Positions 5,858-24,473 of a stretch of 64,000 nucleotides of DNA are shown here, piece by piece. The notes beneath the pieces were generated by a model. The model saw only the letters and a list, made by a program, of their open reading frames with translations, had not been told where the DNA came from and did no database searches. Numbering within the stretch: position 1 is the stretch's first letter; each line of letters begins with the position of its first letter. This DNA comes from Streptomyces sp. SUK 48 (GTDB taxonomy: Bacteria > Actinomycetota > Actinomycetes > Streptomycetales > Streptomycetaceae): positions 2,852,001 to 2,916,000 of the forward strand of contig NZ_CP045740.1 in the NCBI RefSeq assembly GCF_009650765.1, written 5' to 3'. A program made the translations under genes and the position numbers.

Positions 5858-6136
5858 ATGGTCAAGGCTAAGGGTGTGGGACGGTCCGTGGTGGGGCTGG
5901 TGGCCGTGTTGGTGGTCGGGGGGTCGGCGCGGGCCGTCGCGGCCGAGCCCGGGGATACGCACTGGGGTGGGACCCCGGTCGTCGTCGCCGCGGCTGCGCC
6001 CGGGGACACGCACTGGGGCATCGCTCCGGCCGCCGTCGTCGGCGCGGAGCCCGGGGACACCCACTGGGGTGCCGTTCACGACAGTGTTCCGGTTTCCCTC
6101 GGCGACAGCAGTAGCAGTAGCAGTAGCAGTAGCTGA
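5858..6136 (+). CDS. Small secreted peptide with three 17-residue PGDTHWG repeats and a poly-serine tail
   Basis: The 92-residue protein starts with ATG after a purine-rich ribosome site (GGGGGAGACAGTG). Residues 1-29 form a Sec-type signal peptide: basic start, a hydrophobic core (VVGLVAVLVVGG) and an Ala-x-Ala cleavage region. The mature part is three copies of a 17-residue unit beginning (E/A)PGDTHWG, spaced exactly 51 bases apart, then a short linker and nine serines at the C-terminus. I do not recognise the family. The layout of leader plus repeated near-identical cores resembles multi-core precursor peptides, but it could equally be a structural or cell-wall peptide or a metal-binding repeat (Asp, His and Trp in each unit). 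It lies 50 bases before the aminotransferase-like gene on the same strand, so it may belong to the biosynthetic cluster. Confidence 0.7.
   Translation: MVKAKGVGRSVVGLVAVLVVGGSARAVAAEPGDTHWGGTPVVVAAAAPGDTHWGIAPAAVVGAEPGDTHWGAVHDSVPVSLGDSSSSSSSSS
5945..6070 (+). repeat. Three in-frame 51-bp repeats encoding (E/A)PGDTHWG
   Basis: Copies of the core begin at 5945, 5996 and 6047, an exact period of 51 bases. Each gives Glu/Ala-Pro-Gly-Asp-Thr-His-Trp-Gly, followed by a hydrophobic spacer of nine residues. DNA between copies differs mainly at silent or spacer positions (for example GAT/GAC, ACG/ACC), so the eight-residue core is conserved at protein level while the spacer drifts. This suggests selection on the peptide. 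Confidence 0.9.
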
Positions 6137-6186
6137 CTCATCGCCCCCCGCACCCTTTCGACGCCACCGTCAGGAGCCCCTCTCCC

Positions 6187-7367
6187 ATGCCCTCCCTCCC
6201 CCGCGCTCTCGGTGAACTCGGCGGTTCCCGCGGCGAGTACGGCGATCGGGTCGACGCGTTGCTGCGTGGTTCCGGGGACGGGGAGAGCGTTCCGTTGCAT
6301 CGGGGCAGGACCGTGTTCGGTGCCTGTGCGCGGCCTCGGGAGTGGGGCGAGGGGGAGTTCGGGGCCGGGCCGGACGAGGAGGCGCCGGTCGGTGGGGTGG
6401 CCGAGCTGCGGGCGGCGTTCGCCAAGGAGGCGAGTGGCCGGCGGGGTGGGCACGTGCCGGCCGAGCGGGTGCTGGTCACCGGTGGGGCCACGCACGCCCT
6501 CTCCCTCGCGTTACGTGCCGTACTCCGCGCGGGCGACGAGGTGCTGGTGCTCTCGCCGCACTGGCCGGAGGTCACCGGGGTGGTCCGGGCCGTGGGCGGG
6601 GTGGTGCGGGAGGTGCCGGTCTTCCTGGGGCTCGGGGCCGGCGGTTTTGGATTCGACCTGGTGGGGGCCTTGGAAGGGGCGGTGACCCGCAGGACGCGGG
6701 CCGTCTACTTCAACAGTCCCAACAATCCGACCGGGTACCGGCTCGATCGGCGGCGGCTCGCACTGCTCGTGGAGCTGGCCGAGCGGCACGATCTGTGGCT
6801 CATCGCCGACAACACCTACGACGGGTACGACTTCACCCGGGAGGGGTTTTCGGACATCGCGGGGATCGGCGCGGCGGCGGAGCGGACGTTCTCGGTGCAC
6901 GGCTGTGGGACGACGTACGCGATGCCCGGGAACCGGGTGGGGTATCTGGTCTGCCCGCCCGGGGCGGCGGCGACGGCGGTCTCCTGGGCGCGGTACACGG
7001 GTGGGGCCGTGCCCACCGCGGCGCAGTTCGCCGCGTACGAGGCGCTGCGCACCCCGCGTGCGGAGCTGGACCGGCGCCGGGACCGTGCCGCGGCGGCCTG
7101 GTGGCTCGCGGACTCGACGCTGGAGGTGCCGCACACGGAGGTGTCCGGCGGCCTGTACACGTTTCTCGATCTGCGGGCCTGGGGGACGGCGAGCGGTTCG
7201 TGCGGCGGTGCGCCGAGCACGGTGTCGGTCTGGCGCCGGGGCGGGACTTCGGCGCGCACTGCGGCGGTTGGGCCCGCCTCTGCTTCACCGCCGCGCCACC
7301 GCAGCGGGTGGCCGAGGCGATTCAACGCATCAACAAGGTCTACGGGGAAGGCGCCGATGAGCACTGA
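6187..7367 (+). pseudogene. Class I/II aminotransferase-like gene with one frameshift and no catalytic lysine
   Basis: The product would be about 393 residues, normal for fold-type I aminotransferases. Visible motifs are the NSPNNPTG loop (around 176-183), the Asp of IADNTYDGY near 208 that would hold the PLP pyridine nitrogen, the Tyr at 211, and the YAMPGNRVGY segment near 244-253 with the phosphate-binding Arg. The residue aligned with the Schiff-base lysine (SK-x-YAM in relatives) is Thr242 (GTTYAM). The frame breaks at the five-G run 7181-7185. Adding one G restores the expected C-terminus, which ends at 7367 and overlaps the LuxR start by 11 bases. Without that base the frame runs into the LuxR gene and looks like a fusion. 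Function is unclear: a dead PLP fold, a non-PLP activity, or a decaying gene. Confidence 0.7.
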
Positions 7368-7917
7368 GACGGTCACGCTCGAACGCCCGCAAGCGACGGT
7401 GACGGGCGACGGTCAGGGGACGAGAACGGCGATCTGCGGGGTGCGGCCGCTCGTGCTCGTGGGACTCACGCATCTGCTGACCACGCAGTCGCCCTGCGAG
7501 GTCGTCTTCGCCTCGGCCGACGGCTTCCCGGAGCCCGGGCCCGGGATCGATGTGCTGCTGGTCGAGGACACCCTCGCGCAGGACGTGCCGGAGCGGGCGC
7601 TGTGGTGCGGGAGCGCGCCGGACGTCGTCGTGGTGCGGGCCGACGCGACCCCGGACCAGGTGCTGCGGCAGGTGCGTGAGGCCGTGGAGCGGCGGGCGCC
7701 CGCCGCCGCGGGCGACCGGGCGCCGGCCGGGCTGTCGCCGCGCGAGGAGCAGGTGCTCCGGTTCATCGCGTCGGGGATGACCCATGGCCAGGTGGCCCGG
7801 CGCATCGGCATCAGCCAGCACACCGTGGACACGTACGTGAAGCGGGTGCGATCCAAGTTCGGTATCGGCAACAAGGCGGAACTCACCCGCGTCGCGCTCG
7901 GCCTCCAGCCCTTGTAG
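7357..7917 (+). CDS. LuxR-family transcriptional regulator
   Basis: The 186-residue protein has a C-terminal LuxR/FixJ helix-turn-helix (from about residue 125: LSPREEQVLRFIASGMTHGQVA, then ISQHTVDTYVKRVRSKFG). Its N-terminal domain of about 100 residues resembles a degenerate receiver: strands such as VLLVED are present, but the usual phospho-acceptor context is not obvious. ATG 7357 lies inside the end of the aminotransferase-like gene, so the pair is probably cotranscribed. It is convergent with the leftward biosynthetic operon, 28 bases away from its last gene. A role as cluster-situated regulator is an inference from position. Confidence 0.8.
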   Translation: MSTETVTLERPQATVTGDGQGTRTAICGVRPLVLVGLTHLLTTQSPCEVVFASADGFPEPGPGIDVLLVEDTLAQDVPERALWCGSAPDVVVVRADATPDQVLRQVREAVERRAPAAAGDRAPAGLSPREEQVLRFIASGMTHGQVARRIGISQHTVDTYVKRVRSKFGIGNKAELTRVALGLQPL

Positions 7918-7945: not shown

Positions 7946-8428
7946 TCAGTAGTAGTCGCGCATGATGGTGGTGGCCCACTCGGGCTGAGTGGTGTCGCCC
8001 TGGGGGCCGAACTCGCTCATGTAGGGCTTGATGTCGAGGACCGGGGTGCCGTCGACGGCGTCCAGGCCCTCGACGTGGAGGTCGAGGCCGTCGGTCTTGA
8101 GCAGGCGGCAGCGGGAGACGCCGATCCGGTTCGGGCGGTTCTTGCCGCGCTGGGCGAAGATGCCGACGCGCGGCCAGCCGGTGTTGCCGCGCGGGTGCCG
8201 GGCCCCGGTCTCGATCTTCGCCACGGGCACGCGGTCGAAGTGGAAGACGATCTCCAGGTGGGAGAAGGAGTCCAGGCCGGCCACCGCGTCGGCGCCGTAC
8301 TGGCCGGCGTCCAGGCGGATGACCGCCGTCTCGCTGCCCCAGTCGTCGTCGCGGACCTCCGCGCGCCCGCCTACCACCCGGCCCACCGGGACCAAGACCA
8401 CCTCGGCGGGAGTGCTGTTCTCGGGCAT
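7946..8428 (-). CDS. TrmO/TsaA-like SAM-binding protein, copy 1
   Basis: The 160 residues cover the TsaA/TrmO beta-barrel domain. TrmO methylates N6-threonylcarbamoyladenosine in tRNA-Thr using SAM, but full TrmO of E. coli carries an extra C-terminal domain that is absent here. Motifs seen are FSHLEIVFHF, the HPRG segment, RPNRIGVSRC and the DGTPVLDIKPY motif near the C-terminus. It is the last gene of the leftward operon, 16 bases after the ATP-grasp gene. A second copy lies at 14194-14688 in the same operon. Two copies inside a biosynthetic operon make a housekeeping tRNA role unlikely. Methylation, or transfer of another SAM-derived group, in the pathway is the inference. The exact chemistry cannot be read from sequence. 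Confidence 0.82.
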   Translation of the reverse strand: MPENSTPAEVVLVPVGRVVGGRAEVRDDDWGSETAVIRLDAGQYGADAVAGLDSFSHLEIVFHFDRVPVAKIETGARHPRGNTGWPRVGIFAQRGKNRPNRIGVSRCRLLKTDGLDLHVEGLDAVDGTPVLDIKPYMSEFGPQGDTTQPEWATTIMRDYY

Positions 8429-8444: not shown

Positions 8445-9770
8445 TCAAAGAGTCGATACGTCGATCGAGTGGTCCACCGTATCGATCAGCTGCGGCGCGC
8501 CGGTACGCGGGAGGTCCGGATCGCTCCAGAACTGGTCCACGCGGTCGGTGAGTTGGCTGATCAGCGCCCTCAGCTCGGTGTGGTCGGCGGCCGATCCGTA
8601 GACCGTGCCGATCGCGCCGATGGTGCCCCGGCGCCAGTCGGTGTGCCAGTCGGCGGGCGGGGAGACGTCGACCAGGTCGACGCCGGGCAGGTCCCCGAGG
8701 TCGTCGAGGAGCGAGCGCGGGCCGGGCCGCAGCGGACCGGTGGGCGGCAGCAGCAGGTACTGGAAGGTCACCCGGTCGCCGTGCAGCCGGGCGGGGTCCG
8801 GTGCGGTGACGGGCAGGCCCAGGGCGAGGCGCAGGGCGGCGGCCACCATGTCGTAACCGGTGCGGCGCTGCACGATCTCCGCGATGAACCCGCCGAGCCG
8901 CCCGTTGACCTCGATGACCCTCGGGCCCCGCGGAGTGAACTTGACCTCGGTGTGGGTGATGCCGTGCCGGATGCCGAGGGCCCGCACCGCCGCCTCGGCC
9001 AGCCGTTCGACCTCGGCGGCGACGTCGGCCGTCACCGGGGCCGGCAGCACATGGCCGGTCTCGCGGAACGGCGGGACCAGCGGCGGTTTTCCGTTGATCG
9101 CGGCGGTGCGCGGTTCGCCGTCGACGACCAGGGACTCCACGGAGACGAAGTCGGCCCAGCCGGGGCCGGTCCGGGTGGGGTCCGCGGGCAGGAACTCCTC
9201 CAGGACGAAATCGCGGTCGGCTCCGGCGGCGAACTCCGCCAGGCGGGCGCGGAGTTCGGCCGCGGAGGTGATCAGGCAGGTGTCCACGCTGCCGGCGCCG
9301 TGCCGCGGTTTGAGGACCGCGGGGGTGCCCACCCGGGCGAGCGCGGCGGCCGCCTGGTCCGGGTCGCGGACCAGGACGCATCCGGTGTGCTGGACGCCCG
9401 CCTGCGAAAGGGCCCGCCGTTGCCGGTACTTGTCGGTGAGGGCCGCCGCGGTGGCGCGGGAGTGGAAGCGCAGTCCGCAGTGCTCGGCGATCGCCGCCGT
9501 CAGGCGCAGCCGGTGCTCGCTGAAGGTGAGGACGCCCGCGGGATCGAGGCTCTCGGCGAGCCGGCACACCTCCGCCTCCCCGAGCCCGGTGAGGTCGGCG
9601 ATCTCGGCGTGCTTCCCGATCTGCGCCAACTCGGCCTGGTACGCCGGGTTCTCCGGCTCGCACAGGAAGATCACCCGGCACAGTCCGCGGGCCGCCGAGA
9701 CGATGCGCCAGGCGGTGGCGGAGCCCCGGTCGTGGACGACCAGGAGGGCGGGGAGCGCGGAGTGTGCCAT
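8445..9770 (-). CDS. ATP-grasp ligase
   Basis: The 441-residue protein belongs to the ATP-grasp superfamily, which forms amide bonds through acyl-phosphates. Features are an N-terminal nucleotide-fold domain (LLVVHDRGSATAW), the ATP-binding core with TPAVLKPRHGAGS (about 155-170), the LEEFL hinge, and the metal-binding tail VIEVNGRLGG. It resembles BacD/dapdiamide-type ligases that join two amino acids. ATG 9770 was chosen because the family sequence begins there and a GGAGG site precedes it. The reading frame is open further upstream, but that part is the antisense of the methyltransferase. It sits 11 bases after the methyltransferase gene. In context it probably couples the modified amino acid to another carboxylate or amine. 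Confidence 0.87.
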   Translation of the reverse strand: MAHSALPALLVVHDRGSATAWRIVSAARGLCRVIFLCEPENPAYQAELAQIGKHAEIADLTGLGEAEVCRLAESLDPAGVLTFSEHRLRLTAAIAEHCGLRFHSRATAAALTDKYRQRRALSQAGVQHTGCVLVRDPDQAAAALARVGTPAVLKPRHGAGSVDTCLITSAAELRARLAEFAAGADRDFVLEEFLPADPTRTGPGWADFVSVESLVVDGEPRTAAINGKPPLVPPFRETGHVLPAPVTADVAAEVERLAEAAVRALGIRHGITHTEVKFTPRGPRVIEVNGRLGGFIAEIVQRRTGYDMVAAALRLALGLPVTAPDPARLHGDRVTFQYLLLPPTGPLRPGPRSLLDDLGDLPGVDLVDVSPPADWHTDWRRGTIGAIGTVYGSAADHTELRALISQLTDRVDQFWSDPDLPRTGAPQLIDTVDHSIDVSTL

Positions 9771-9781
9771 GGGTTCCTCCG

Positions 9782-10546
9782 TCAGGCCCGGCGGGCGGTG
9801 ATGTTGAGCCGGACGTAGTCGACGACGGGTTCGGGCAGGCGGGCGGCGACCGCGCGCACGAACTCCTCGTGGTCGGACTCGGGGAGCTTGTCGAGGTGGG
9901 AGCCGAGGACCACGGTGGCCAGGTAGCTCCACAGCTGCTCGCCGGGCTCCAGCCGCGCCGGGTCGGGCAGCAGGTCGACGTCGATGTCGGTGAACCCGGC
10001 GGCCCGCAGCCGCTCGGTGGTCTCCTCGACGCCGGCGAAGTACCAGACCTTGTCCTTGCCCTCGGGCTCGTCCTCGGACTTCTTGCCGAGCACCTCGCCG
10101 ACGGCCGCGTTGATCAGGGCCACATTGCCCTGGCCGCCGCACTCGGCGACGAACTGGCCGCCGGGCCGCAGCTGTCCGGCCAGGTTGGCGAAGAGCGCCG
10201 CGTGGTCGGTGATCCAGTGGAAGGTGGCCACGCTGGTGATCGCGTCGACCTGGCCGGAGACCGGCAGCGGCTTGGTCAGGTCGGCCTGGACGATCTCCAG
10301 CCGGTCCAGCCGGCCGGCCAGCTTGGCGCGCAGCTGGTCGAGCATCCGGCTGGAGCCGTCGACGCCGATCACCCGGCCGTCGGGGACCAGGTCGAGCAGC
10401 GCGGCGGTGTCCCGGCCGGTGCCGCAGCCGGCGTCCAGGACGGTCTCGCCGCCCTTGAGGTTCAGCCTGCCGAGGGTGCGCTTGCCCCACTGCTGGTGCG
10501 GCAGGGGCAGCGAGTCGTACGTCTTGGCGTCCCATTCACGGGGCAC
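9782..10546 (-). CDS. Class I SAM-dependent methyltransferase (trans-aconitate-methyltransferase-like)
   Basis: This is a 254-residue Rossmann-fold methyltransferase with motif I VLDAGCGTGRDT (around residues 37-48), an acidic residue after the second strand (VIGVDGS) and a post-I DAITSVATFHWI segment typical of trans-aconitate and malonyl-ACP methyltransferases. A GTG start at 10546 overlaps the end of the OsmC-like gene by 11 bases, indicating coupling. HemW-like radical SAM enzymes pair with class I methyltransferase-like partners in cyclopropane formation (C10P/C10Q in CC-1065 biosynthesis). The presence of both types in this operon makes that a testable analogy, not a demonstration. Simple O-, N- or C-methylation is equally possible. 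Confidence 0.87.
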   Translation of the reverse strand: MPREWDAKTYDSLPLPHQQWGKRTLGRLNLKGGETVLDAGCGTGRDTAALLDLVPDGRVIGVDGSSRMLDQLRAKLAGRLDRLEIVQADLTKPLPVSGQVDAITSVATFHWITDHAALFANLAGQLRPGGQFVAECGGQGNVALINAAVGEVLGKKSEDEPEGKDKVWYFAGVEETTERLRAAGFTDIDVDLLPDPARLEPGEQLWSYLATVVLGSHLDKLPESDHEEFVRAVAARLPEPVVDYVRLNITARRA

Positions 10547-11588
10547 GGTGAGGTTCCTTCGTGTCGGTGGAGCGGTCGTTCTCGGGGTGCGGTACGGGGA
10601 CCGGGGTGCCGTCGAGGACCAGCCGGACCTCGATCGGGTGCGGGTCCCGCACCAGCCGCAGGGCGTCGCCCTCGGCGAACCAGCGGCGTACGGCGTCCGG
10701 TGCGGCCTCGCCCGACCGGGTCGGGTCGGCGGGCAGCAGCTGGACGAGGATGTTGCGCAGGCCGGCGGGGGCGTCCTGGGTGGAGTAGGGGCCGCGCAGG
10801 TCGATCCGGCCGGAGGCGTGCACGGAGACGGCCGGTTCGCCGGGTGCGGCGGCGCGCGGGTCGGCGAAGCCGAGGGCCTCGGCGGCGAGCGCGGCCAGGA
10901 AGTACTCCTGGGCGCTCGGCGCGAGGTCGGCGCCGAACAGCTGCTTGGGCTGGTCGGACTCGGCGCGCACGCCGTCGACCTCGGCGAGGACATGGGTGCC
11001 GATCTCCCACATCACCCGGGCCGTGCGCCGTCCGGCGACGGTCAGCTCCGCGGTGGCGCGGGCGGCGGGCGGGCTGGCGAGGTGCACGTCCTTCGCGCTC
11101 TGCACCACGGCCTTGATCTCGTTGGGCTCCTCCAGGGTGCGGTGGGCGTTGCCCCGGGCGCGGGCCGCGGCCACCGCCCGCCGGGCCTGCTCGGCCGGGA
11201 CCTCGCCGTCGAGCCGTATCTCGTACGAGAGCCTGGCGGCGCCGTCCGCCGCGAACTCGGCGCACGGCAGCACCTCCAGGAGCGCCGGGCCGCAGCCCGC
11301 GCCGGACAGCTCGGTGACGACGCTGTCCGCGACGGAGGCGCCGAGCGCCACCAGCAGGGAGCCGACCGGGTCGAGGCAGTCGGCGGCGCCGGGCCCGAAC
11401 CGCTGGTCGATGCCGAAGGCGCGGGCCACACGGGTGGAGCCGAGGCGCATCGGTTCGGTGCGTACCCGGCAGCGGCCGGCCGCCGCCGGCTGGGCCGCCA
11501 CGCCGATGCTCAGCTGGGCCTCCCAGGAGTCCTCCCCGATCTGCTCGGCGAGGGAGTGCCGGGCGCGCAGGTCGACGCCGTTCAGCAT
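10536..11588 (-). CDS. Tandem OsmC-like protein lacking the redox cysteines
   Basis: The 350-residue protein appears to hold two OsmC-like halves. Each has the central helix pattern (GSLLVALGASVAD near 75-90; SAQEYFLAALAAEALGF in the second half), followed by a beta-rich stretch and a late motif (AHRTLEEPNEI; DALRLVRDPHPIEV) matching the second OsmC motif. Canonical OsmC/Ohr peroxidases carry a cysteine in each motif. Here the helix position is Ser or Glu, and the late position also has no Cys in either half. Peroxide reduction is therefore unlikely and a binding or scaffold role is more plausible. It overlaps the upstream cystathionine-synthase-like gene by 7 bases. The family assignment rests on pattern, not strong identity. 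Confidence 0.55.
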   Translation of the reverse strand: MLNGVDLRARHSLAEQIGEDSWEAQLSIGVAAQPAAAGRCRVRTEPMRLGSTRVARAFGIDQRFGPGAADCLDPVGSLLVALGASVADSVVTELSGAGCGPALLEVLPCAEFAADGAARLSYEIRLDGEVPAEQARRAVAAARARGNAHRTLEEPNEIKAVVQSAKDVHLASPPAARATAELTVAGRRTARVMWEIGTHVLAEVDGVRAESDQPKQLFGADLAPSAQEYFLAALAAEALGFADPRAAAPGEPAVSVHASGRIDLRGPYSTQDAPAGLRNILVQLLPADPTRSGEAAPDAVRRWFAEGDALRLVRDPHPIEVRLVLDGTPVPVPHPENDRSTDTKEPHRAP

Positions 11589-12649
11589 GACTCGTCACCT
11601 CCGTCGCCCTGTGCGAGGGCGGTGTCCAGGGCCCGCCGGAGCCGGCCGGACAGGGCGTCCGCGCCGGTGACGCCCACCGCGAGGCGGACCAGGTGGCGGG
11701 TGATGCCCCGCTCCCGGCGGACCCGTTCGCTGAGGTGGGCGTGGCTGGTGCGGGCGGGCAGCCGGGCGGTGCTGCCGAGGGGGGTGCGGCCGTCGTCGCA
11801 GGCGGCCAGGATGCCGGTGAGGTCGTGGATCTCCGGTACGACCTCGAAGGACAGCAGGCCGCCGAAGCCCCGGTGGGTCTCCAGCGCCCAGGGCGCCTCG
11901 TCGAACGTCGGCCGGTGTACGGCCCGTACGGCGGGGTGGGCGCGCAGCATCCCGGCGACCCGTTCGGCGCCGTCGCGCTGCGCGGTCAGCCGCAACGGGA
12001 GGGTGGACAGGGCGCGTTCGAGCAGATGCGCGGACCAGTCGGGCACCTCGCCGCCGAGCCGTGCGCATTGCTCGGCGATCCTCGGCAGGTACCGGTCCAG
12101 GCCGGTGACGAGGGCGGCGCCGACGTCGCCCCAGCCGTCGAGGTAGGGCGCCGTGTCCTCGACGACGATCACGGCGCCGGTCTCCAGGGGCCGCAGTTCG
12201 GCCGGGGACAGCGCGGTGTTGTCCACCACGAGCAGCAGGTCGTTCATCTGGGCGTGGATGGCGATCTCGTTGAGCGGGGCCGGGCGCATCAGCGGGTCGC
12301 TGAGGGACTGCGTGTGGACGACCTGGGTCTCGGGCCGTACGGCGGCCAGGACGGCGTCCGCGTCGGTGCTGTCGACGAAGCTCACCGTGCGGCCGAGCCC
12401 GGCGAGTTCCTGGGTGAGGACGCCGCGCAGCGGGTCGGGGGTCTGGTCGGAGGCGACGATGTGGCCGCCCGGGTTGGTGAGCGCGAGCAGCGTGGCCGTG
12501 GTGGCGGCGACCACGCCGGGCACCAGCAGCGCGGTGTCGGCGCCGTGCAGGGCGGCGAAGGCGTCCTCGACGCGGCGGGCCGGCGCGTGGGCCGGGGCCG
12601 GGGACGCCGTCGCGGCGGCGGTCGGGGGTGCGAAGGGGCGCATGGTCAC
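11582..12649 (-). CDS. Cystathionine-gamma-synthase-like protein with the PLP lysine replaced by proline
   Basis: The protein (355 residues) follows the Cys/Met-metabolism PLP family in order: N-terminal dimer arm, a LLVPGVVAATTATLLAL segment in place of the phosphate-binding helix, LLVVDNTALSP with the conserved Asp at 143, and a C-terminal domain with the GFGGLLSFEV and SLGxxxxL-like (PLGSTARLP) stretches. At the Schiff-base site, relatives read S-x-T-K-Y-L-x-G-H-x-D; this protein reads D-T-A-P-Y-L-D-G-W-G-D, so the lysine is Pro168. Standard PLP catalysis is therefore not expected. The GTG start at 12649 overlaps the radical SAM stop (GTGA); ATG 12643 is the alternative. It may be a structural partner or a repurposed SAM/substrate-binding fold. 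Confidence 0.78.
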   Translation of the reverse strand: MTMRPFAPPTAAATASPAPAHAPARRVEDAFAALHGADTALLVPGVVAATTATLLALTNPGGHIVASDQTPDPLRGVLTQELAGLGRTVSFVDSTDADAVLAAVRPETQVVHTQSLSDPLMRPAPLNEIAIHAQMNDLLLVVDNTALSPAELRPLETGAVIVVEDTAPYLDGWGDVGAALVTGLDRYLPRIAEQCARLGGEVPDWSAHLLERALSTLPLRLTAQRDGAERVAGMLRAHPAVRAVHRPTFDEAPWALETHRGFGGLLSFEVVPEIHDLTGILAACDDGRTPLGSTARLPARTSHAHLSERVRRERGITRHLVRLAVGVTGADALSGRLRRALDTALAQGDGGDESC

Positions 12650-14112
12650 CGCCGGCACACGGGCGCGTCGGACAGGCCGATGCGCTGGTGGAAGTAGTGG
12701 AAGATGATCTCCTCGTGCAGCGCCTCGCCGTCCAGGGTCGGCTTGAGGGCGGCGCCGTCGTTGACCTTCTCGACCAGTCCGCGCTCGATCAGCTCGCCGA
12801 AGGCGGAGGCGAAGGGCTCCGTCTCCAGCAGATCGGCGCCGAAGCGCTCCTGGTAGCGGGCGAGGTCGATCGGCTGGTTGGCCTTGAAGTTGAAGCCGAG
12901 GGCGGTGCCGATGGCCTTGTGGCCGCTGAGCCGGCGGCCGAAGTTGAGCGGCAGGCCCTCGTTGTTCTGCATGAACGACACGTACTTGCTGATGTCGGTG
13001 ATGTTGTGCGTCTGGAGGAACTCCTCCTGGTCGCCGGTGAGCCAGCCGTAGGCACCGGGACCGTACGCGATCATGGTGTTGTAGTGCTCCCACTTGTTCT
13101 TCGAGGTCTGCGGGATGTTGCCGCCCTCGTAGGTGCCGGGCCGGCTCCACCAGCCGCAGGGGCTCGGGTAGTAGCCCTGCTCCAGCAGGACCTCCACGGC
13201 CTCCTGGCGCATCGCGTAGGTCGAGTCCAGCTCGGGGAACCGGCCCTCGCTGATGAGCCGTTCGCGCACCGCGGGGTTGTTCCAGACCGCGCGGTTGCCG
13301 ATGCCCATCTCCTCGCGGTCGGCGTTGCGCAGCCGGTAGATGGTGATGGTGGGGACGCCGAGACCGGTGAGGATCTCCATGTCGCGGCGCACCGACTCCG
13401 GGGTCTGGTACGGCAGTCCGAACATCATGTCGACGTTGAAGGGGCAGCCGGTCGCGAGCAGGTTCTTGATGGCCTCGATCGACTGGGCCGTGGAGTGGCG
13501 GCGCTTGGTGAAGTCGTTCACCTCGTCCTGGAGCGACTGCACGCCGAGGCTGAACCGGTTGAAGCCCAGCTCCCGCGCGGTCTCCAGGTGGTGCTCCTGG
13601 AAGTTCTCCGGGTTGCCCTCGATGTTGAACTCGATCTCGTCGGAGAGCTCGTAGTTCTCCCGGACGTGCTCGACCAGCGGCCGGATGTACTCGGGGCTGT
13701 TGAGCAGCAGGGCCGCGGTGCCGCCGCCGATGTAGAACGACTCGATGCGGGCCCGGGGTATCCAGTCGTAGCGCTCCAGGTAGCGGCGGGACTCCTCGAT
13801 GAGGAGGTCGGACCACAGCCGCAGGGCGCCGTCCTCCTTGCCGCGCGGCACCAGGCGCTTGACGTAGTTGCAGAAGTGACAGATGTAGTTGCACAGCGGG
13901 AGGTGGAAGTACAGGTGGGCCGGGTGTCCGGCGCCCGGGAACCGGCCGTACTCGGCGGCGAGTTCGTCGGCGCCGAGCCGGTCGCCCTCGTTCGAGGTGA
14001 CGTTGATGTTGTACTCGTCGCGGGGGATCTGGAGCTGGGGGTTGCGGTCGAGGAGGCGGCCGAGGTTGAGCTCCAGATCGACCGGGGTGCCGTCGGTGGT
14101 GGTGACAGACAT
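12646..14112 (-). CDS. HemW-like radical SAM enzyme (class C methyltransferase type)
   Basis: The 488-residue protein has the radical SAM cluster motif CNYICHFC (Cys74, Cys78, Cys81: CX3CX2C), the GGG(T) SAM-binding segment FYIGGGTAALL, the ribose-binding ENxEGNPE-like stretch (FNIEGNPENF) and a HemW/CPO-like C-terminal domain (YxxYEI region modified, HYFHQRIG near the end). Class C radical SAM methyltransferases and cyclopropanases (for example TbtI, NosN, YtkT/C10P, Jaw5) share this architecture and use two SAM molecules. ATG 14112 follows an AAGGAG site. It is coupled to the next gene through GTGA. It is the likely key tailoring step of the pathway, but HemW-type heme chaperones are related, and the position in a biosynthetic operon is what favours a pathway role. 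Confidence 0.85.
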   Translation of the reverse strand: MSVTTTDGTPVDLELNLGRLLDRNPQLQIPRDEYNINVTSNEGDRLGADELAAEYGRFPGAGHPAHLYFHLPLCNYICHFCNYVKRLVPRGKEDGALRLWSDLLIEESRRYLERYDWIPRARIESFYIGGGTAALLLNSPEYIRPLVEHVRENYELSDEIEFNIEGNPENFQEHHLETARELGFNRFSLGVQSLQDEVNDFTKRRHSTAQSIEAIKNLLATGCPFNVDMMFGLPYQTPESVRRDMEILTGLGVPTITIYRLRNADREEMGIGNRAVWNNPAVRERLISEGRFPELDSTYAMRQEAVEVLLEQGYYPSPCGWWSRPGTYEGGNIPQTSKNKWEHYNTMIAYGPGAYGWLTGDQEEFLQTHNITDISKYVSFMQNNEGLPLNFGRRLSGHKAIGTALGFNFKANQPIDLARYQERFGADLLETEPFASAFGELIERGLVEKVNDGAALKPTLDGEALHEEIIFHYFHQRIGLSDAPVCRR

Positions 14113-14193: not shown

Positions 14194-14688
14194 TCAGGGG
14201 GCGTAGTACCGGGACATGGCCTCGTGCAGCCAGTCCGGTTCGCGGACCGTCTCCGGCGGCGGCGCGAAGAGCTTCTGGTACGGCTTGACGTCGAGGACCG
14301 GGGTGCCGTCCAGCGCGTCGAGCGCCCGGACGTGCAGGGTCAGGCCGTCGACCCGGACCAGTTCGCAGCGCGAGACGCCGAGCCGGTTCGGGCGTTCCTT
14401 CAGCCGCTGGGCGAGGATGCCGAGGCGGGGCAGGTCCGTGCGGTCCCGGGGGTGGCGGTCGCCGGTGACGGCCGCCGTCTCGGGGATCAGATGGAAGTGG
14501 AAGACGATCTCCAGGTGCGAGAACCGCTCCAGGCCGGTCACGGCCTCGGGCCGCAGCCGCTCCGGGTCCAGCTCGATGACGGAGGTGACCTCGCCCCAGT
14601 GGTCGTGCTCGGGCACCCGGCGGGGCGAGCGGACGACGCCGATGGGCTGGAAGACGTACGAGGGTGCGGTGCCGTTCGGCTCCTGCAC
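14194..14688 (-). CDS. TrmO/TsaA-like SAM-binding protein, copy 2
   Basis: The 164-residue protein is a paralogue of the product of 7946-8428 and shares FSHLEIVFHF, RPNRLGVSRCELV and DGTPVLDVKPY. The N-terminus reads YVFQPIGVVRSP, the classic first strand of the family. GTG 14688 was chosen because it follows an AGAGGAG site and the family begins there; the open frame upstream is antisense to other genes. It lies between the PCP-thioesterase (26 bases) and the radical SAM gene (81 bases). Like copy 1 it lacks the C-terminal domain of tRNA-modifying TrmO. The two copies are clearly diverged, so they may act on different substrates or form a heteromer (family proteins dimerise). Confidence 0.82.
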   Translation of the reverse strand: MQEPNGTAPSYVFQPIGVVRSPRRVPEHDHWGEVTSVIELDPERLRPEAVTGLERFSHLEIVFHFHLIPETAAVTGDRHPRDRTDLPRLGILAQRLKERPNRLGVSRCELVRVDGLTLHVRALDALDGTPVLDVKPYQKLFAPPPETVREPDWLHEAMSRYYAP

Positions 14689-17078: not shown

Positions 17079-17836
17079 GCGACTTCGCCCTCCTCGGCGT
17101 TTTCCCTGCCGGGAATCCCGGGGAATACGTCCTGGTAGAAATCACGCATCACCGCGGTGATCTCGGCCGTATTGCGATAACAGTCGGCGTGCGATCCCCG
17201 GATGGTTTCGAGCCGGAGCGTCCCGCCGCGGGCCGCGAGGCGCTCGCGTTCGCCGGGCAGGATGTTGCGGCTGCCGGCGCCGGCCAGCACCAGGACCGGG
17301 ACGCCGAGGCGCTCCAGCAGGTCCGGCAGGTGCCCGAAGTCGTAGGTCCAGCGCAGCAGGCTGCCCTCGGCCCATTCGTCGGCCTCGTGCAGCGCGGGGT
17401 GCGCGTCGAAGGACTGGTCGATCACCACGAGGCTGCGCACCCGGGACGCTCCCCAGGTGACCGCGGAGACGGCCGCCACCAGGCCGCCGTACGAGTATCC
17501 GACCAGGTGCACCTCGCCCGGGAGGATGTCGGCGACGCGGTGCAGGTCGGCGGAGAAGTCCAGGACCGAGTAGCCCCAGGCCGGCCGGTGGCTGTCGCCG
17601 TGGGCACGCAGCGAGGGGTGGACGGCGACGGAACCGGGCGGGCACAGGGCGTCGCCGATGGGCCTCAGCTGGGTCTTGTCGCCGCCGAATCCGTGCAGCA
17701 GGAGCATGCTGCCGGGGGCGCCGGCGGCCCCGGAGCGCCCGGGGACGGCGTCGTAGTCCAGCAGTTGGACACCGCTGCCGTGTCCCGCCAGGGCCGGTGT
17801 GGGAAGAACACGGTCTTCCGGTCCGGCAACGCTCAT
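17075..17836 (-). CDS. Alpha/beta hydrolase
   Basis: The 253-residue alpha/beta hydrolase carries the oxyanion HGFGGDK loop (about 48-54), the nucleophile elbow GYSYGG (Ser115) and a late His in GSHADCY (about 225). ATG 17836 is the first start compatible with the family and has a G-rich site about ten bases upstream. The open frame continues upstream without family sequence. It is the first gene of the leftward operon and ends in an ATGA overlap with the MFS gene. Possible roles are a second (type II) thioesterase that clears mis-loaded carrier protein, or an esterase/amidase acting on the product. The sequence does not decide between them. Confidence 0.83.
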   Translation of the reverse strand: MSVAGPEDRVLPTPALAGHGSGVQLLDYDAVPGRSGAAGAPGSMLLLHGFGGDKTQLRPIGDALCPPGSVAVHPSLRAHGDSHRPAWGYSVLDFSADLHRVADILPGEVHLVGYSYGGLVAAVSAVTWGASRVRSLVVIDQSFDAHPALHEADEWAEGSLLRWTYDFGHLPDLLERLGVPVLVLAGAGSRNILPGERERLAARGGTLRLETIRGSHADCYRNTAEITAVMRDFYQDVFPGIPGRENAEEGEVA

Positions 17837-18041: not shown

Positions 18042-19580
18042 ATGGGAGTCGGCCTCATCCACCGGGCGGTCGCACACCGGGCCAGGACCCGGCCGAACGC
18101 GCCGGCCGTGGTGGACGGCTCCACCCGGCTCGACTACGCCACGCTCGACGCGGCGGCGGACGCCTGGGCGGCCGCCCTGGCGGCGGCCGGCGCGGGGCCG
18201 GGCACCCTGGTCCCCGTCCTGCTGCCGCGCTCGGCCCGGCTGTACGTCGCCCTGCTCGCGGTGCTCAAGTGCGGTGCCGGGTACGCCGCGCTGGACCCGA
18301 GGTGGCCCCGGGAGCGGATCGAGTCCGTGCTCGGGCAGCTCGGCGGTCCGGTGCTGGTGACGGACTCCGGTGAGACGACGGGAGAGCCGTCCGGGATGCG
18401 GTTCGGGCCCTGGCCGGTGTGGCAGCCCCCGGCCGGATTCGACGCGTTCACGGACGCGGCCGCCACCCGGGACGGCGGGAGCGCGTTCCGTGCCTACGAC
18501 GGGCCGGCCGACGTGCCCGCCACCGTCTTCTTCACCTCCGGCACCAGCGGCACCCCGAAGGGCGTGGTGTCCCCGCACGCGGCCACCACCCGGCTGTTCA
18601 CGGCGGACGGGCCCCTCGCCTTCGGCCCCGGCACGGTCATGCTGCAGGCGGCCCCCGCGTCCTGGGACGCCTTCTCCCTGGAGCTGTGGGGGATGCTCAC
18701 CACCGGCGGCACCTGTGTCACCGCCGCGGAGGACTACCTCCTGCCGGACACGCTGCGCCACCTGATCGACACCCGCGCCCTCGACACCGCCTGGCTCACG
18801 TCGTCCCTGTTCAACCTGTTCACCGAGATCGACCCGGACTGCTTCCGGGGCCTGCGCCGCCTCTACATCGGCGGGGAGCGGCTGTCGGCCGCGCACGTGG
18901 GCCGGTTCCTCACCGCGCACCCCCAAACCGAGTTGTTCAACGGCTACGGTCCGGTGGAGAGTTGCGTGTTCGCCAGCGTGCACCCCATCACCGCGGCGGA
19001 CTGCGCGGCGGAGCACGGCGTTCCCATCGGCCGCCCGGTCCCCGGCACCCGGGTGCATGTGCTGGACGAGGCGGGGCGGGAGTGTCCGCCCGGGGTCACC
19101 GGCGAGCTGTGCGTCGGCGGGGCGGGGCTGGCGCTCGGCTACCTCGGCGACCCGGACCTCACCGCCGCGCGCTTCACCGGGCACCCGTCGGCCGGCACCC
19201 GGCTCTACCGGACCGGCGACCACGGCCTGCGGGACACCGACGGCGTCCTCCACTTCACCGGGCGCACCGACCGCCAGGTCAAGATCCGCGGCTACCGCAT
19301 CGAGCCGGAGGAGATCGAGACCCACGCGGCCGGGCTCCCCGGCGTCACCCGCTGCGTGGCCGTCCCGGTCCCGGGCGAACTGGGCAACTACGACCGGCTC
19401 GCGCTGTTCTACACCTCCGCCGCCGAGACGGAGGAGGACCCGGTGCTGCTGCGCCGCTCCCTGTCCCTGCGGCTGCCCGCGCACGCCGTGCCGGACGTCG
19501 TGCGGCGGGTGGAGCGGCTGCCGGTGACGGCCAACGGGAAGGTCGACCGGTCGGAGCTGCTCGCCACGCTCGTCGGGTGA
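18042..19580 (+). CDS. Stand-alone NRPS adenylation domain
   Basis: The 512-residue protein is a complete adenylation domain with no carrier or condensation part. Core motifs in order are A3 FTSGTSGTPKG (near residue 164), A4 SWDAFSLELWG, A5 FNGYGPVES, A7 YRTGDHG, A8 GRTDRQVKIRGYRIEPEE and A10 with the catalytic lysine in TANGKVDR near the C-terminus. The Asp in A4 is the usual anchor for an alpha-amino group, so an amino acid substrate is likely; I did not derive a specificity code. ATG 18042 follows GGAGGG. It probably charges the PCP of the PCP-thioesterase protein encoded on the other strand. It begins the rightward unit with the tautomerase and SAM synthetase genes. Confidence 0.92.
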   Translation: MGVGLIHRAVAHRARTRPNAPAVVDGSTRLDYATLDAAADAWAAALAAAGAGPGTLVPVLLPRSARLYVALLAVLKCGAGYAALDPRWPRERIESVLGQLGGPVLVTDSGETTGEPSGMRFGPWPVWQPPAGFDAFTDAAATRDGGSAFRAYDGPADVPATVFFTSGTSGTPKGVVSPHAATTRLFTADGPLAFGPGTVMLQAAPASWDAFSLELWGMLTTGGTCVTAAEDYLLPDTLRHLIDTRALDTAWLTSSLFNLFTEIDPDCFRGLRRLYIGGERLSAAHVGRFLTAHPQTELFNGYGPVESCVFASVHPITAADCAAEHGVPIGRPVPGTRVHVLDEAGRECPPGVTGELCVGGAGLALGYLGDPDLTAARFTGHPSAGTRLYRTGDHGLRDTDGVLHFTGRTDRQVKIRGYRIEPEEIETHAAGLPGVTRCVAVPVPGELGNYDRLALFYTSAAETEEDPVLLRRSLSLRLPAHAVPDVVRRVERLPVTANGKVDRSELLATLVG

Positions 19581-19650: not shown

Positions 19651-20088
19651 ATGCCCGTCATCACCCTGATGTCGCCCGACGCCGGCCCCGGCCGTCCCGC
19701 CCTGGCGAAGATCGCCGAGGCGGTCACCGGGCTGCTGGGCATCGCCCCGCAGCACTGCTGGGTGACCTGGCAGCGGCTCGACGACGACGCGGCGCACCGG
19801 CCCGAATGGGACCGCCCGGCCGGCCACCCGCGTGCCCCGATCGGCTTCATCACCTGCAAGGCGACGTATCCGCGGGAGACCGTGGGCCGGCTGCTGCGGC
19901 TGCTGCGCGACGAGCTGAGCGCCCTGCTCGGGGTGCCGGGCGACGAGGTCTACCTCGTGGTGCGCCGGGCCGTACCGGGCGAGCTGCTGATCCGGGGTGA
20001 CGTCTGGGCCGGGGACGAACCGGCGCCGGAAGCGGCCGCCGCGCGGGCCGGGGCCGCTTCGATGGCGAGCCCGCGCAACCACCACTGA
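19651..20088 (+). CDS. Tautomerase-superfamily protein
   Basis: The 145-residue protein starts MPVITL, so removal of Met exposes Pro, the catalytic base of the 4-oxalocrotonate tautomerase superfamily. The length suggests two beta-alpha-beta units: the second begins around GFITCKATYPRETV and continues into VYLVVRRAVPGELL. The tail is disordered and Ala-rich. It lies 70 bases after the adenylation gene and 23 bases before metK, so the three probably form one transcript. In a biosynthetic setting such proteins catalyse keto-enol tautomerisation, (de)conjugation or cyclisation of imines and enols. Which reaction applies here is unknown. Confidence 0.72.
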   Translation: MPVITLMSPDAGPGRPALAKIAEAVTGLLGIAPQHCWVTWQRLDDDAAHRPEWDRPAGHPRAPIGFITCKATYPRETVGRLLRLLRDELSALLGVPGDEVYLVVRRAVPGELLIRGDVWAGDEPAPEAAAARAGAASMASPRNHH

Positions 20089-20111: not shown

Positions 20112-21347
20112 GTGTCACGTCGTCTGTTCACCTCGGAGTCCGTGACCGAGGGCCATCCCGACAAGATCGCCGACCAGATCAGCGACACCATTCTCGACGC
20201 CCTCCTCAAGGAGGACCCGGGCTCCCGGGTCGCCGTGGAGACCCTGGTCACCACCGGCCTGGTGCATGTCGCGGGCGAGGTGACGACCACCGCGTACGCC
20301 CCGATCGCGGCCCTGGTGCGCGACCGCATCCTCCAGATCGGCTACGACAGTTCGCTCAAGGGCTTCGACGGCGCCTCCTGCGGCATCTCCGTGTCCATCG
20401 GCGCGCAGTCCCCGGACATCGCGCGGGGTGTGGACACGGCGTACGAGTCGCGGGTCGGGGGCGCCGCCGCGGGTGGCGAGCGCGACGAGCTGGACCGGCA
20501 GGGCGCGGGCGACCAGGGCCTGATGTTCGGCTACGCCTGCGACGAGACGCCGGAGCTGATGCCCCTGCCGATCACCCTGGCCCACCGGCTGTCCCGGCGG
20601 CTGTCCGAGGTCCGCAGGAACGGCACCCTGCCGTATCTGCGCCCCGACGGGAAGACGCAGGTCACCATCGAGTACGACGGCGACCGGCCGGTCCGTCTCG
20701 ACACGGTCGTCATCTCCGCGCAGCACGCCGCGGACACCGATCTGGAGGGGACCCTCGTCCCGGACATCCGCGCGCAGGTGGTGGAGCCCGAGCTGGCCGC
20801 CCTCGGCATCGCCACCGAGGGCTACCGCCTGCTGGTCAACCCCACCGGCCGGTTCGAGATCGGCGGTCCGATGGGGGACGCGGGTCTGACCGGGCGGAAG
20901 ATCATCATCGACACGTACGGCGGTATGGCGCGGCACGGTGGCGGCGCGTTCTCGGGCAAGGACCCGTCCAAGGTGGACCGCAGTGCCGCGTACGCGATGC
21001 GCTGGGTCGCCAAGAACATCGTGGCGGCCGGTCTGGCCCGGCGCGCCGAGGTGCAGGTGGCGTACGCGATCGGCAAGGCGGAGCCCGTCGGCCTGTTCGT
21101 GGAGACCTTCGGCACCGAGACCGTGCCGGTGGCGCGCATCCAGGACGCGGTGATCGAGGTCTTCGACCTGCGGCCGGCGGCGATCATCCGCGACCTCGAC
21201 CTGCTGCGGCCGATCTACGCCCAGACGGCCGCGTACGGTCACTTCGGCCGCGAACTGCCCGACTTCACCTGGGAACGCGTGGACCGCGCGGAGCGGCTGC
21301 GGGCGGTGGCGGCGGCTTGCGGGGAACCGGGCACGGCACGGGGCTGA
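20112..21347 (+). CDS. metK: S-adenosylmethionine synthetase (cluster-embedded MetK)
   Basis: MetK makes SAM from methionine and ATP. The 411-residue protein has all family signatures: [11 protein letters not shown] near the N-terminus, [12 protein letters not shown] in the middle and the glycine-rich [20 protein letters not shown] loop around residues 275-295. It starts with GTG after GAGGAG. Placement directly behind the adenylation and tautomerase genes, rather than in a housekeeping setting, indicates a dedicated copy that boosts SAM supply. This fits at least four SAM-dependent proteins in the facing operon (radical SAM enzyme, methyltransferase, two TrmO-like). A second housekeeping copy should exist elsewhere in the genome. 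Confidence 0.96.
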
Positions 21348-21401: not shown

Positions 21402-21441
21402 GTCCGGCGACCGGGGCGTCCGGGTCCCTCGCCGGCGGGGT

Positions 21442-24400
21442 TCAGGTGGCGGTCGTAGCCCCGCTGGCGGCGGTGTTCGGGCCGCCGGCCTCGACCATCA
21501 GGTCCTCGGTCCGTTCCAGCCAGGTCCGGGAGCCGAGGTCGGCGAACAGGTCGCGCGCCGCCTCCAGTTGCGCCGAGGCCAGCTGGTGATCGCCGCGGAC
21601 CAGGGCGATCTCGGCGAGCGCGTAGCGCGACCTGGCCTCGACGAGCCTCTCCCCCACCTGCCGCGACAGATGCAGGGCGCGGGTCAGCGTGTCGGTGGCG
21701 CTGTCCAGCCGCTTCTCCCGGCGGCGGAGCGCGCCGAGGCCGTACAGCGCGTACGCCTCGCCGATCCGGTCGCCGCTGTCCCGCACGATCCGCAGGACCT
21801 CCTGGAGCGCCTCCTGGGCCTGGCGCGGCTGGTCGATCGCGAGGTGGAGCTCGGCGAACCGCTGGAGCACCTGCGCCTGGACGCGCAGGCAGTTCTCCTC
21901 CCGGGAGATGGTGAGGGCCTGCTCCAGCAGCGCCCGGGCGCGTTCGGTGTTTCCCGAGGCCAGCCACCAGCCGGCCAGGCTGCGCAGGATGTGCGCCTCG
22001 CCGATCCGGTCGCCCACCAGTCTGGTGATGGCCAGCGCCTCGTCGTACTTCTCCCGCATGGCGGCGTCGTCCCCGCGCACGCTGTCCAGGTAGGCGGCGT
22101 TGCGCAGCACCAGGGCGCGCCCGTGGTCGTGGCCCGCCGCCTCGAACAGCTCACGCGCCTGACCGAAGCGCTCGTCCGCCTGCTCCATGCGGGTCTGGAA
22201 CATGTGCAGGGTGCCCAGCGAGTACGACATCGCCGCCTGGCCGATGCGGTTTCCGGCCCGGGCCGACGCCTCGTAGGCCAGGCGCGTGGTCTCCTTCCAG
22301 TCGTCGAAGTACCCCTTGGCCTCGAACAGGGTGACCGAGGTGAGGGCGAGGTCCCAGCACAGCTCGTCCAGGCCGGCCGCGGCGGCCTGCCGTACGGCCG
22401 TCACCAGCGCCCGGCGTTCCCCGCTGAGGCGCTCCATCGGCCGGGCGGCGGGCTCCGCGCCGGCGTCCGCGGGGAGCTTCCAGCGCTCGGCGTGGCCGTG
22501 GATGATCGTGTAGTCCCCGCCGTACTCCTCCCGGTGGGCCTCCTCGACCAGGGAGAGCCAGCCGCCGAGCACGCGCGCCAGGGCGGCGTCCTGCTCCTCG
22601 GGGGTTCGGCGGCGAGGAGTTCCTCGCGGGCGTAGGCGCGGATGAGGTCGTGGAAGCGGTAGCGCGGCCGGAGCGAGTCCGGGTATCGCACGGTGTCCAT
22701 GACCTGCGCCTCGACCAGGGCGTCGAGGGTGTCCTCGGCGGCACCGAGGTCCGCGTCCAGCAGCGCGGCGGCGACCCAGGCCGGCGAGTCGGGGGCCTGG
22801 ACCAGGGCGAACAGCCGGAACAGGCGCTGGGCGGAGGGGGGCAGCGCCCGGTACGTCAGGCTGATGGTGGAGCGCAGTTCGAGGCCACGGTGGCTCAGCT
22901 CGTCCAGCCGGCGGCGCTCGTCCCGTAGCCGCTGGACCAGCCACTCGATCCGCCAGTGGGGGTGGGAGGCCAGCCGGGCGCCGGCGATCCGCAGCGCCAG
23001 GGGCAGCGCGTCGCACAGGTTGACCAGTTCGACGGCCGTGTCGAGTTCCGCCTGGACGCGCTCGCGGCCGACGATGCCGGCCAGCAGTTCCAGGGCGTTG
23101 GCCATGTCGAAGGCGGCGAGGTCGATCCCGCGGACGCCGTCCGTGCCGGCCAGCCGGGCCCGGCTCGTGGTGATCACCGCGCAGGTGGCGCTGCCGGGCA
23201 GGAGCGGGGTCACCTGCCCGGCGCCGGTCACCCCGTCCAGGACCACGAGCACCCGGCTGTCCGCGAGTCTGCTGCGGTACATCTCGGCGCGTTCCTGGGC
23301 GTCGTCCGGGATGGCCTTGGCCGGGATGCCGAGGGCCCGGAGGAAGCGGGCCAGCAGGGCGGTGATCTGCGCGTCGCCGGAGACGGTGTGCAGGTCGGCG
23401 TAGAGATGGCCGTCGGGGAAGTGCTTGCTCACCTCGTGGGCGGCGCGTACGGCGAGGGCCGACTTGCCGACGCCGCCGGGGCCGGAGATGTCCACGATCG
23501 GCACGGCGTAGCCCGGGCTCTGTGCCCGGGCGGAGGCGACGAGCAGTTCCTTGATCTCGTCGAGCTGGGCGCGGCGGCCGGTGAAGTCGCCGATGGTGGC
23601 GGGGAGCTGGCGGGGGATGAGACGGAAGCCGCTCTCCCGCGCGTCGGGGGTGTCCGCGGTGTCCCGGGTGCCGGGCCCGGCGGCGGGGCGGGCGGGGACG
23701 TCCCGGTCCGGTGGCGGAGCGGGGAGGTCGAGCGCCGGGGACTGCGTCAGGATCGCCTGTTCCAGATCGCGCAGTTCCTGCCCCGGCTCGATCCCCATCT
23801 CCTCGACCAGGGTTCTGCGGGCCCGCTGGAACGTCGCCAGCGCCTCCGCCTGCCGCCCGGAGCGGTACAGCGCCAGCATGAGGAGCTCGTAGAGGCGCTC
23901 GCGCAGCGGGAACCGGCCGATGAGCACGGTCAGTTCCGCGCAGACCTCGCCATGCCGGGCCAACAGGAGGTCGAGGCGCAGGCACTCCTCGATCGCGGCC
24001 AGGCGTCTGTCGTCGTAATGCCGGGCCACATGCCGTACGGAGTCGCTGGGGACGCCGTCGAGGGCGGGGCCGCGCCAGAGGCCGAGGGCCTGGCGCAGGG
24101 CCGCCGCCGCCTCGGTGACGCGGCCGGCGCGGGAGTGCTCGCGGGCGGTGGTGACCAGCCGGTCGAACTCCAGGCTGTCCACACCGTCCGCGGCGAGTTC
24201 GAGGACGTAGCCGGGCGCGCGGGTCTTGATCGCGTCGGGGCGGCCGGCCAGGGCGAACTGCTTGCGGAGCGTCGAGACGGCGACCTGGATCTGACCGCGC
24301 GCGGTGACGGGGGGCGCGTCGCCCCATACCGCGTCGATCAGCTGTTCCGTGGACAGCGTGCGGTTGATGTTCAGCCCCAGCATCGCCAGGACCACCCGCT

Positions 24401-24473
24401 GGCGCGGGCCGCCGACCTCGAGCGCACGACCCTCGTGGACCAGCTCGACCGGCCCCAGCAGCCGAAGGATCAT
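21442..24473 (-). CDS. SARP-family regulator with NB-ARC and TPR domains (AfsR-like), one frameshift
   Basis: Across about 1,010 codons the gene encodes an OmpR-like winged helix (LLGPVELVHEG start), a bacterial transcriptional activation domain, an NB-ARC ATPase with Walker A GPGGVGKSAL, a winged-helix stretch and a long C-terminal TPR region (repeated GDRIGEA units). This is the AfsR-type layout. The N-terminal frame runs to about 22600, where it leaves the family. The TPR part continues in another frame. The switch maps to a five-G run at 22600-22604, and one added G restores continuity (EPPEEQDAA). ATG 24473 is the family start; a GTG three codons upstream is possible. It lies convergent with metK at the right edge of the cluster and is the best candidate for pathway activator. 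If the frameshift is real, the protein would lose its TPR half. Confidence 0.85.

Follow-up and report, generated by a model that had tools for sequence, protein, structure and literature searches.

A conserved actinomycete gene cluster combining probable carrier-linked amino acid loading, a HemN-like radical SAM enzyme and probably non-catalytic enzyme relatives

Amino acids can be tailored while bound to a carrier and joined by dipeptide ligases, as in the bacilysin pathway, with its ligase BacD, and in that of dapdiamide. We analysed a 64,000-nucleotide stretch of Streptomyces sp. SUK 48 (bases 2852001-2916000 of the single contig NZ_CP045740.1 of 8,341,671 bases; hereafter the window) that holds a gene cluster resembling these systems in its amino acid activation, ATP-grasp ligase and exporter, and differing from them in its other tailoring enzymes and in ligase scores far under the cut-offs of the corresponding models. 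The cluster includes a radical S-adenosylmethionine (SAM) enzyme, two short TrmO-like proteins and relatives of cystathionine gamma-synthase (CGS) and OsmC. The CC-1065 cyclopropanase C10P/C10Q (PMC6050322) likewise pairs a HemN-like radical SAM enzyme with a class I type methyltransferase; the SUK 48 enzymes would presumably act instead on an amino acid attached to a carrier, and their cluster also encodes TrmO-like, CGS-like and OsmC-like partners. Among the class C methylases NosN and NocN (PMC12871812), NocN is the nearest solved methylase by sequence and its tyrosine at the second SAM (SAM-II) and cysteine motif align with ours, although only about 200 residues align and the cluster has no indolic acid pathway. 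TvgB, a cyclopropylglycine maturase (PMC9062424), also directs radical SAM chemistry at valine within a peptide pathway, but belongs to a multi-cluster peptide-modifying group, is not HemN-like and adds no SAM carbon. We propose, at roughly even confidence, that the SUK 48 genes form a conserved cluster that makes and exports a dipeptide-like small molecule by way of a carrier-bound, valine-like amino acid and dual-SAM radical chemistry.

The gene inventory came from gene calls and from Pfam and NCBIfam scans of the window proteins. A leftward operon (7946-17836) faces divergent adenylation (A), tautomerase-like and metK genes that begin at 18042:

7946..8428, minus strand: TrmO1, a short TrmO-type SAM-binding barrel without the C-terminal tRNA domain (PF01980, TrmO_N, E 1.7e-26)
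8445..9770, minus strand: ATP-grasp ligase (Pfam, NCBIfam)
9782..10546, minus strand: class I SAM methyltransferase (Pfam, NCBIfam; SAM motif VLDAGCGTG)
10536..11588, minus strand: putative two-domain OsmC-like protein, cysteines mostly lost (alignment, PF02566 in relatives, predicted fold)
11582..12643, minus strand: CGS-like protein without the N-terminal arm or the pyridoxal phosphate (PLP) lysine (PF01053, E 4.8e-49; alignments)
12646..14112, minus strand: HemN/HemW-like (class C type) radical SAM enzyme (PF04055, E 1.8e-22; Y-x5-CxxxCxxC)
14194..14688, minus strand: TrmO2, a second short TrmO-type protein (TrmO_N by Pfam; 52% identical to TrmO1)
14715..15791, minus strand: peptidyl carrier protein (PCP)-thioesterase (TE) didomain (PF00550, PF00975; LGGHSL, GYSMG)
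15840..17078, minus strand: major facilitator superfamily (MFS) exporter (Pfam)
17075..17836, minus strand: alpha/beta hydrolase (Pfam on 17075-17707; GYSYG; longer start backed by the protein of locus L007)
18042..19580, plus strand: stand-alone A protein (PF00501, E 1.5e-67; TIGR01733 above cut-off)
19651..20088, plus strand: tautomerase-superfamily-like protein with an MPVI start (Pro1) (alignments; predicted fold of the homologous L010 domain)
20112..21347, plus strand: second metK copy (TIGR01034 above cut-off)

Three gene pairs (hydrolase/MFS, CGS-like/OsmC-like and OsmC-like/methyltransferase) overlap by 4 to 11 bases and the radical SAM and CGS-like genes are 2 bases apart, supporting a single coupled operon. 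A further metK elsewhere in the genome is 86% identical to the cluster copy, marking the latter as an extra one. All genes listed in a preliminary description of this DNA, made from the letters alone, were recovered at about the positions it gave.

The cluster is genuine, rare and conserved in actinomycetes. Counting the window's own genome, the radical SAM gene was found in 9 of 394 genomes of the same family at E <= 1e-100, five with the cluster and four with a different locus described below; at E <= 1e-10 the OsmC-like gene was found in 6 of the 394, five with the cluster and one distant (genome G223). The only genome with the radical SAM gene in a phylum sample of 396 was the window's own, and plasmid records gave no match to its protein at E <= 1e-60. 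Scanning named genomes for a pair of peptide patterns turned up eight loci, in Streptomyces murinus, S. griseofuscus, S. malaysiense, three Streptomyces sp., Streptacidiphilus jiangxiensis and Actinoplanes flavus. Two of the eight probably coincide with loci already taken from genomes G335 and G046 and were counted once, giving 11 distinct loci for comparison, window included. In S. griseofuscus DSM 40191, an engineered laboratory host (PMC8443760), the operon, A, tautomerase and MetK proteins show 88-99% identity to those of the window. The order hydrolase, MFS, PCP-TE, TrmO2, radical SAM, CGS-like, OsmC-like, methyltransferase is kept in all 11, and every locus has the A gene. The ATP-grasp gene is present in ten, including A. 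flavus (L019; 40% identity over 368 residues by tblastn), and in Streptacidiphilus is replaced, after the methyltransferase gene, by a PCP-condensation (C) protein and a second A protein. TrmO1 is a separate gene in nine loci and fused to the tautomerase in Streptacidiphilus; it was not found within the fetched stretch of the A. flavus locus. The metK gene adjoins the tautomerase gene in five loci (the window, L009/L017, L010/L018, L013 and L014), a count that leaves out L012 and L016, where the contig ends. Relative to L007 and L008, ratios of non-synonymous to synonymous substitution (dN/dS) for cluster genes other than the CGS-like and OsmC-like ones ranged from 0.13 to 0.51. The order kept in ten further loci, together with purifying selection, makes the cluster more than a chance assembly. 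Relatives of the radical SAM protein, at 53-59% identity, occur in Photorhabdus, Burkholderia and Bacillus.

Features of the loading and ligation proteins are consistent with a dipeptide-like product. The A protein carries WDAFSLELW in all 11 loci and NGYGPVESCVF in ten (NGYGPVETCVF in L019), and its specificity code, extracted by eye, reads DALW-x-GGVF, with DALWYGGVF(K) in the window. In the PCP-TE protein both the carrier serine motif (LGGHSL) and the thioesterase motif (GYSMG) are intact. The ATP-grasp protein matched best, far below cut-off in both cases, the NCBIfam models PRK02186 (argininosuccinate lyase type) and alanine-anticapsin ligase BacD, and its weak matches also included the DdaF model alongside BacD. 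Support for a dipeptide step comes from the presence of the ATP-grasp gene in ten loci and of a PCP-C protein and second A protein in the eleventh, suggesting that a dipeptide-like product is likely.

The radical SAM enzyme has the motif CNYICHFC, with its CxxxCxxC cysteines invariant in all five aligned proteins, and its nearest solved chains are HemN (1olt, E 5e-20) and NocN (9p2u, E 4.7e-17). Y68, six residues before the first cysteine, aligns with Tyr56 of HemN, also found in NocN, which stacks on the second SAM (PMC12871812). The methyltransferase gene is linked to the HemN-like gene in 11/11 loci; the nearest NCBIfam models of its product, BioC and trans-aconitate methyltransferase, scored far below their cut-offs. 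The radical SAM enzyme and same-operon methyltransferase fit the C10P/C10Q outline, with cyclopropane chemistry proposed by analogy. The best NCBIfam matches of the HemN-like protein (HutW, STM4012, HemW and HemN) could instead point to handling of haem or another cofactor, with a product that lacks SAM-derived carbon. We consider this very unlikely, given that those scores lie well under the curated cut-offs, that the gene sits in the cluster at all 11 loci and that its relatives adjoin a precursor peptide and a SPASM maturase.

The CGS-like protein is similar to the CGS family over most of the fold, matching solved members by profile with E values down to 2.6e-76, but in all 11 loci it lacks the N-terminal arm and the lysine that would form the Schiff base with PLP; the SATKY stretch reads EDTAPY or similar. 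With this lysine absent, a PLP-dependent role for the protein is not supported. For its neighbour, Pfam gave no match at 1e-3 in the window protein (18 bits, E 0.0039, against a cut-off of 27.5), whereas PF02566 appeared at E <= 0.05 in 10 of 11 members, and a predicted model (pLDDT 78) had 2opl as its best Foldseek match (E 4.1e-05, TMt 0.69, TMq 0.38, one domain matched). The OsmC assignment is thus weak by Pfam and draws on relatives and predicted fold. Two cysteine positions, which we take to be catalytic in OsmC proteins, were located by alignment to a homologue in locus L011: the first is Ser, Ser, Ser, Cys and Gly in five cluster members, and the second is Glu in all five. Relative to L007 and L008, dN/dS was 0.35 and 0.42 for the CGS-like gene and 0.35 and 0.29 for the OsmC-like gene, within the range of the other cluster genes, indicating that both are kept by selection. 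The loss of defining residues (most of them, in the OsmC-like protein) under continued purifying selection suggests that the two are probably non-catalytic partners.

We also considered that the CGS-like and OsmC-like proteins might be catalytic in a new way, without the PLP lysine or the usual cysteines, for example in resolving a SAM adduct. The two genes remain adjacent and under purifying selection, the OsmC-like family is small (only 38 matches at E <= 1e-10 among 7995 scored candidates from a 5.8-billion-protein database), and a distant CGS-OsmC pair with intact lysine and cysteines exists in the L011 cluster, all of which would suit such a role. The lost residues nonetheless fit a structural role better, as does faster divergence: identities to the Actinoplanes proteins are 46-47% (CGS-like) and 39% (OsmC-like), versus 79% for the radical SAM enzyme. 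We therefore judge new catalysis unlikely and retain the reading of the pair as probable non-catalytic partners. The L011 cluster (L011:1929-19900, genome G223) encodes a CGS homologue that retains the PLP lysine, an OsmC protein, a C-A-PCP-TE protein and a glycosyltransferase-like gene, along with a lone PCP and a B12-type radical SAM protein, both identified by eye; this may be the setting from which the CGS-OsmC pair descends. The OsmC-like database search also matched, at 26% identity, an S. californicus protein that may belong to the L011 clade.

The four remaining genomes with the radical SAM gene (G323, G341, G260 and G059, of nine) hold a locus of the type that makes ribosomally synthesized and post-translationally modified peptides (RiPPs), with radical SAM identities of 56-62%. 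These loci encode a precursor-like peptide of 46-73 residues, a second radical SAM enzyme (of SPASM type by Pfam in both that were scanned, L030 and L032), a methyltransferase, an MFS protein and an alpha/beta-hydrolase-like protein, the last with weak Pfam support in L030 and no family match in L032. Tautomerase and TrmO are fused in three of the loci and adjacent in G059. A precursor stretch, V-[TV]-L-S-x-x-[GA]-A-A-S-A, is common to L029-L032 and L070, and L029-L032 share the two radical SAM genes and the tautomerase-TrmO fusion (adjacent genes in L032). To show the separation of the two locus types, the sole use made of it, we built a tree of 91 radical SAM proteins (80 of 198 relatives, whose rows have no known context, plus 11 loci; quick mode, midpoint root): the seven rows of the non-ribosomal peptide synthetase (NRPS) type and the four of the RiPP type each fell on one side of a supported branch. 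These parallels raise the idea, doubtful at present, of a general, undescribed tailoring module in which the HemN-like dual-SAM radical enzyme, TrmO-type SAM barrels (whose fold is familiar from tRNA methylation), the methyltransferase and the tautomerase together assemble a carbon skeleton on an amino acid borne by a carrier. Such a module would have been adapted to an NRPS-like carrier in one case and to a ribosomal precursor peptide in the other, the NRPS-like version having recruited two dead enzymes, the CGS-like protein without its PLP lysine and the OsmC-like protein mostly without its cysteines, as a docking pair.

TrmO1 scored 84 bits against the TIGR00104 cut-off of 93.25, and the DPRxxY motif is absent from both TrmO1 (160 residues) and TrmO2 (164 residues). 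Compared with the TrmO tRNA methyltransferase, whose C-terminal DPRxxY domain is tied to tRNA methylation (PMC4132733), the cluster proteins share the N-terminal SAM barrel and three of four SAM contacts, the equivalents of Arg82, Asp111 and Lys122 of the A. fulgidus protein; they differ in an invariant Trp aligned with Gln22, in the missing C-terminal domain and in falling under the TIGR00104 cut-off. A search of the open-licence literature for TrmO, and its older names, in connection with biosynthetic gene clusters found only RNA work. TrmO1 homologues are widespread, occurring in 160 of 394 family genomes at E <= 1e-15 versus 9 of 394 for the radical SAM gene. We examined 16 TrmO1 loci, of which 13 were the top matches among genomes that lack the radical SAM gene and three ranked lower. 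None of the 16 contained a match to that gene, and three retained cluster remnants: a 70-residue ATP-grasp stretch at 53% identity (L057), a methyltransferase at 67% (L068) and a RiPP-type set of precursor, methyltransferase, tautomerase-TrmO and MFS genes with neither radical SAM gene called (L070). The other 13 showed none.

This distribution suggests that TrmO1, alone or fused to the tautomerase, could serve in self-protection or detoxification, altering either the product or what it acts on and so sparing both producers and bystanders exposed to it. Its homologues are far commoner than the radical SAM gene, 3 of 16 orphan loci keep remnants, and the survival of one gene after loss of a pathway is typical of resistance genes. 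On the other hand, the 13 remnant-free loci imply that most orphans may have an unrelated role, and the presence of TrmO2 in all 11 cluster loci and of tautomerase-TrmO, fused or as two genes, in all four RiPP-type loci would also fit biosynthesis. Protection by TrmO1 is in our estimation a credible alternative that falls somewhat short of even chances. The view that both TrmO-like proteins are biosynthetic is accordingly doubtful where TrmO1, a common orphan gene, is concerned. The tautomerase-like protein failed the Pfam cut-off (E 0.076) and had a best E of 0.032 in a sequence search against solved structures; its assignment to the 4-OT/MIF fold draws on the predicted fold of the homologous L010 domain. 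The MPVI start, placing after the initiator methionine the N-terminal proline that has a role in the tautomerase superfamily, is present in 7/7 tautomerase-like proteins and 4/4 TrmO fusions. The TrmO half of the model of the fusion was of low confidence, and nothing was drawn from it.

What the analysis obtained directly is which genes are present, their conserved order, the loss of catalytic residues, the evidence of selection and the parallel RiPP-type locus; from these we infer the substrate, product and chemistry of the proposed pathway. The lone A protein would activate a small aliphatic, valine-like amino acid and load it onto the PCP of the PCP-TE protein, where the bound residue would be modified by dual-SAM radical chemistry with the CGS-like and OsmC-like proteins as non-catalytic partners. 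The thioesterase or the hydrolase would release the modified residue, the ATP-grasp protein would link it to a second unit by an amide bond and the MFS protein would export the product. The extra MetK would provide SAM, and TrmO1 and the tautomerase may act in a final maturation step or in protecting the cell. The pathway outlined in the preliminary description is supported in part: in its conserved unit, lone A protein, PCP-TE carrier, HemN-like enzyme beside a methyltransferase, ligase and exporter.

Several points weigh against this proposal. An A code of this type presumably denotes valine, a tentative reading. The A. flavus OsmC-like gene was seen as a match of 39% over 115 residues only and was absent from a later tblastn search, and metK was not found beside the cluster in L007, L008, L015 and L019. 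The RiPP-type methyltransferase matched the cluster enzyme at 27-31% over about 100 residues in three loci and gave no match in the fourth, so a fixed pairing of radical SAM enzyme and methyltransferase is not supported. TrmO1, being widespread without the cluster, need not be biosynthetic. Class C radical SAM enzymes act on sp2 carbons (PMC12871812), and no gene making an alkene from valine is evident in the cluster. An early guess at the product, 2-(1-methylcyclopropyl)glycine, was dropped: no alkene gene was seen, and 'methylcyclopropyl' did not occur in the literature matches.

On the outer sides of the cluster lie four further genes:

5858..6136, plus strand: 92-residue secreted-type peptide with three PGDTHWG repeats, an associated gene (repeats counted; homologues at the same place in relatives)
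6187..7364, plus strand: aminotransferase-like gene, frame-broken (tblastn of three intact relatives)
7357..7917, plus strand: LuxR/GerE regulator (Pfam; its own gene in L007)
21475..24482, minus strand: SARP/AfsR-type regulator, frame-broken (Pfam, NCBIfam, tblastn with relatives)

The repeat peptide has a Ser-rich tail. S. griseofuscus and S. malaysiense encode homologues of it at the corresponding position, and L007 a degenerate version; of 150 family genomes two matched, the window's own and one weakly. The aminotransferase-like gene breaks frame at about 7182-7185, where three intact relatives split between two frames by tblastn, and its PLP lysine position is Thr, both in L007 aligned to a solved aspartate aminotransferase and, by eye, in the window, L013 and L014. 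A fusion of aminotransferase and LuxR, as Pfam displays it, was rejected in favour of two genes, the first frame-broken and LuxR separate in L007. Together with the repeat peptide, these genes may constitute a signalling set. The SARP gene breaks frame at about 22590-22599 and is open in both relatives aligned; the break could be an assembly error. The two broken genes, open in aligned relatives, might mean that the cluster is silent or decaying in this strain. We give this a low probability, as the operon genes are open and the sequence, from an assembly that we guess was probably PacBio-only, could contain false indels introduced by long reads. Type I restriction-modification genes (specificity and HsdR, by Pfam) form an island at 588-4873 adjoining the cluster, with a G+C content of 0.53-0.58 versus 0.66-0.78 across the remaining window.

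Searches of the open-licence literature, judged mostly by title, found no description of this gene set, in line with the earlier statement that it matched no described pathway. PMC8443760 reports that one NRPS-like region of S. griseofuscus DSM 40191, region 14, forms a singleton when networked with 212 public genomes and MIBiG; it is a possible counterpart of this cluster. PMC7873656 tabulates, without giving coordinates, several NRPS and NRPS-like regions of Streptomyces sp. SUK 48 that have poor matches. We regard the cluster as an uncharacterised variant of known carrier-bound amino acid tailoring that uses class C type radical SAM chemistry, unusual in its dead partner proteins and in a module common to a RiPP-type locus. 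If this is correct, radical C-C chemistry would yield a modified amino acid or dipeptide, assisted by helper proteins that we did not find described in such a setting. The dead PLP and OsmC relatives would then clearly illustrate how enzymes can be retained as biosynthetic partners, and the parallel between NRPS-like and RiPP-type loci would make it possible to compare the action of a single enzyme set on two carrier types, in a compact gene set testable in common laboratory Streptomyces hosts.

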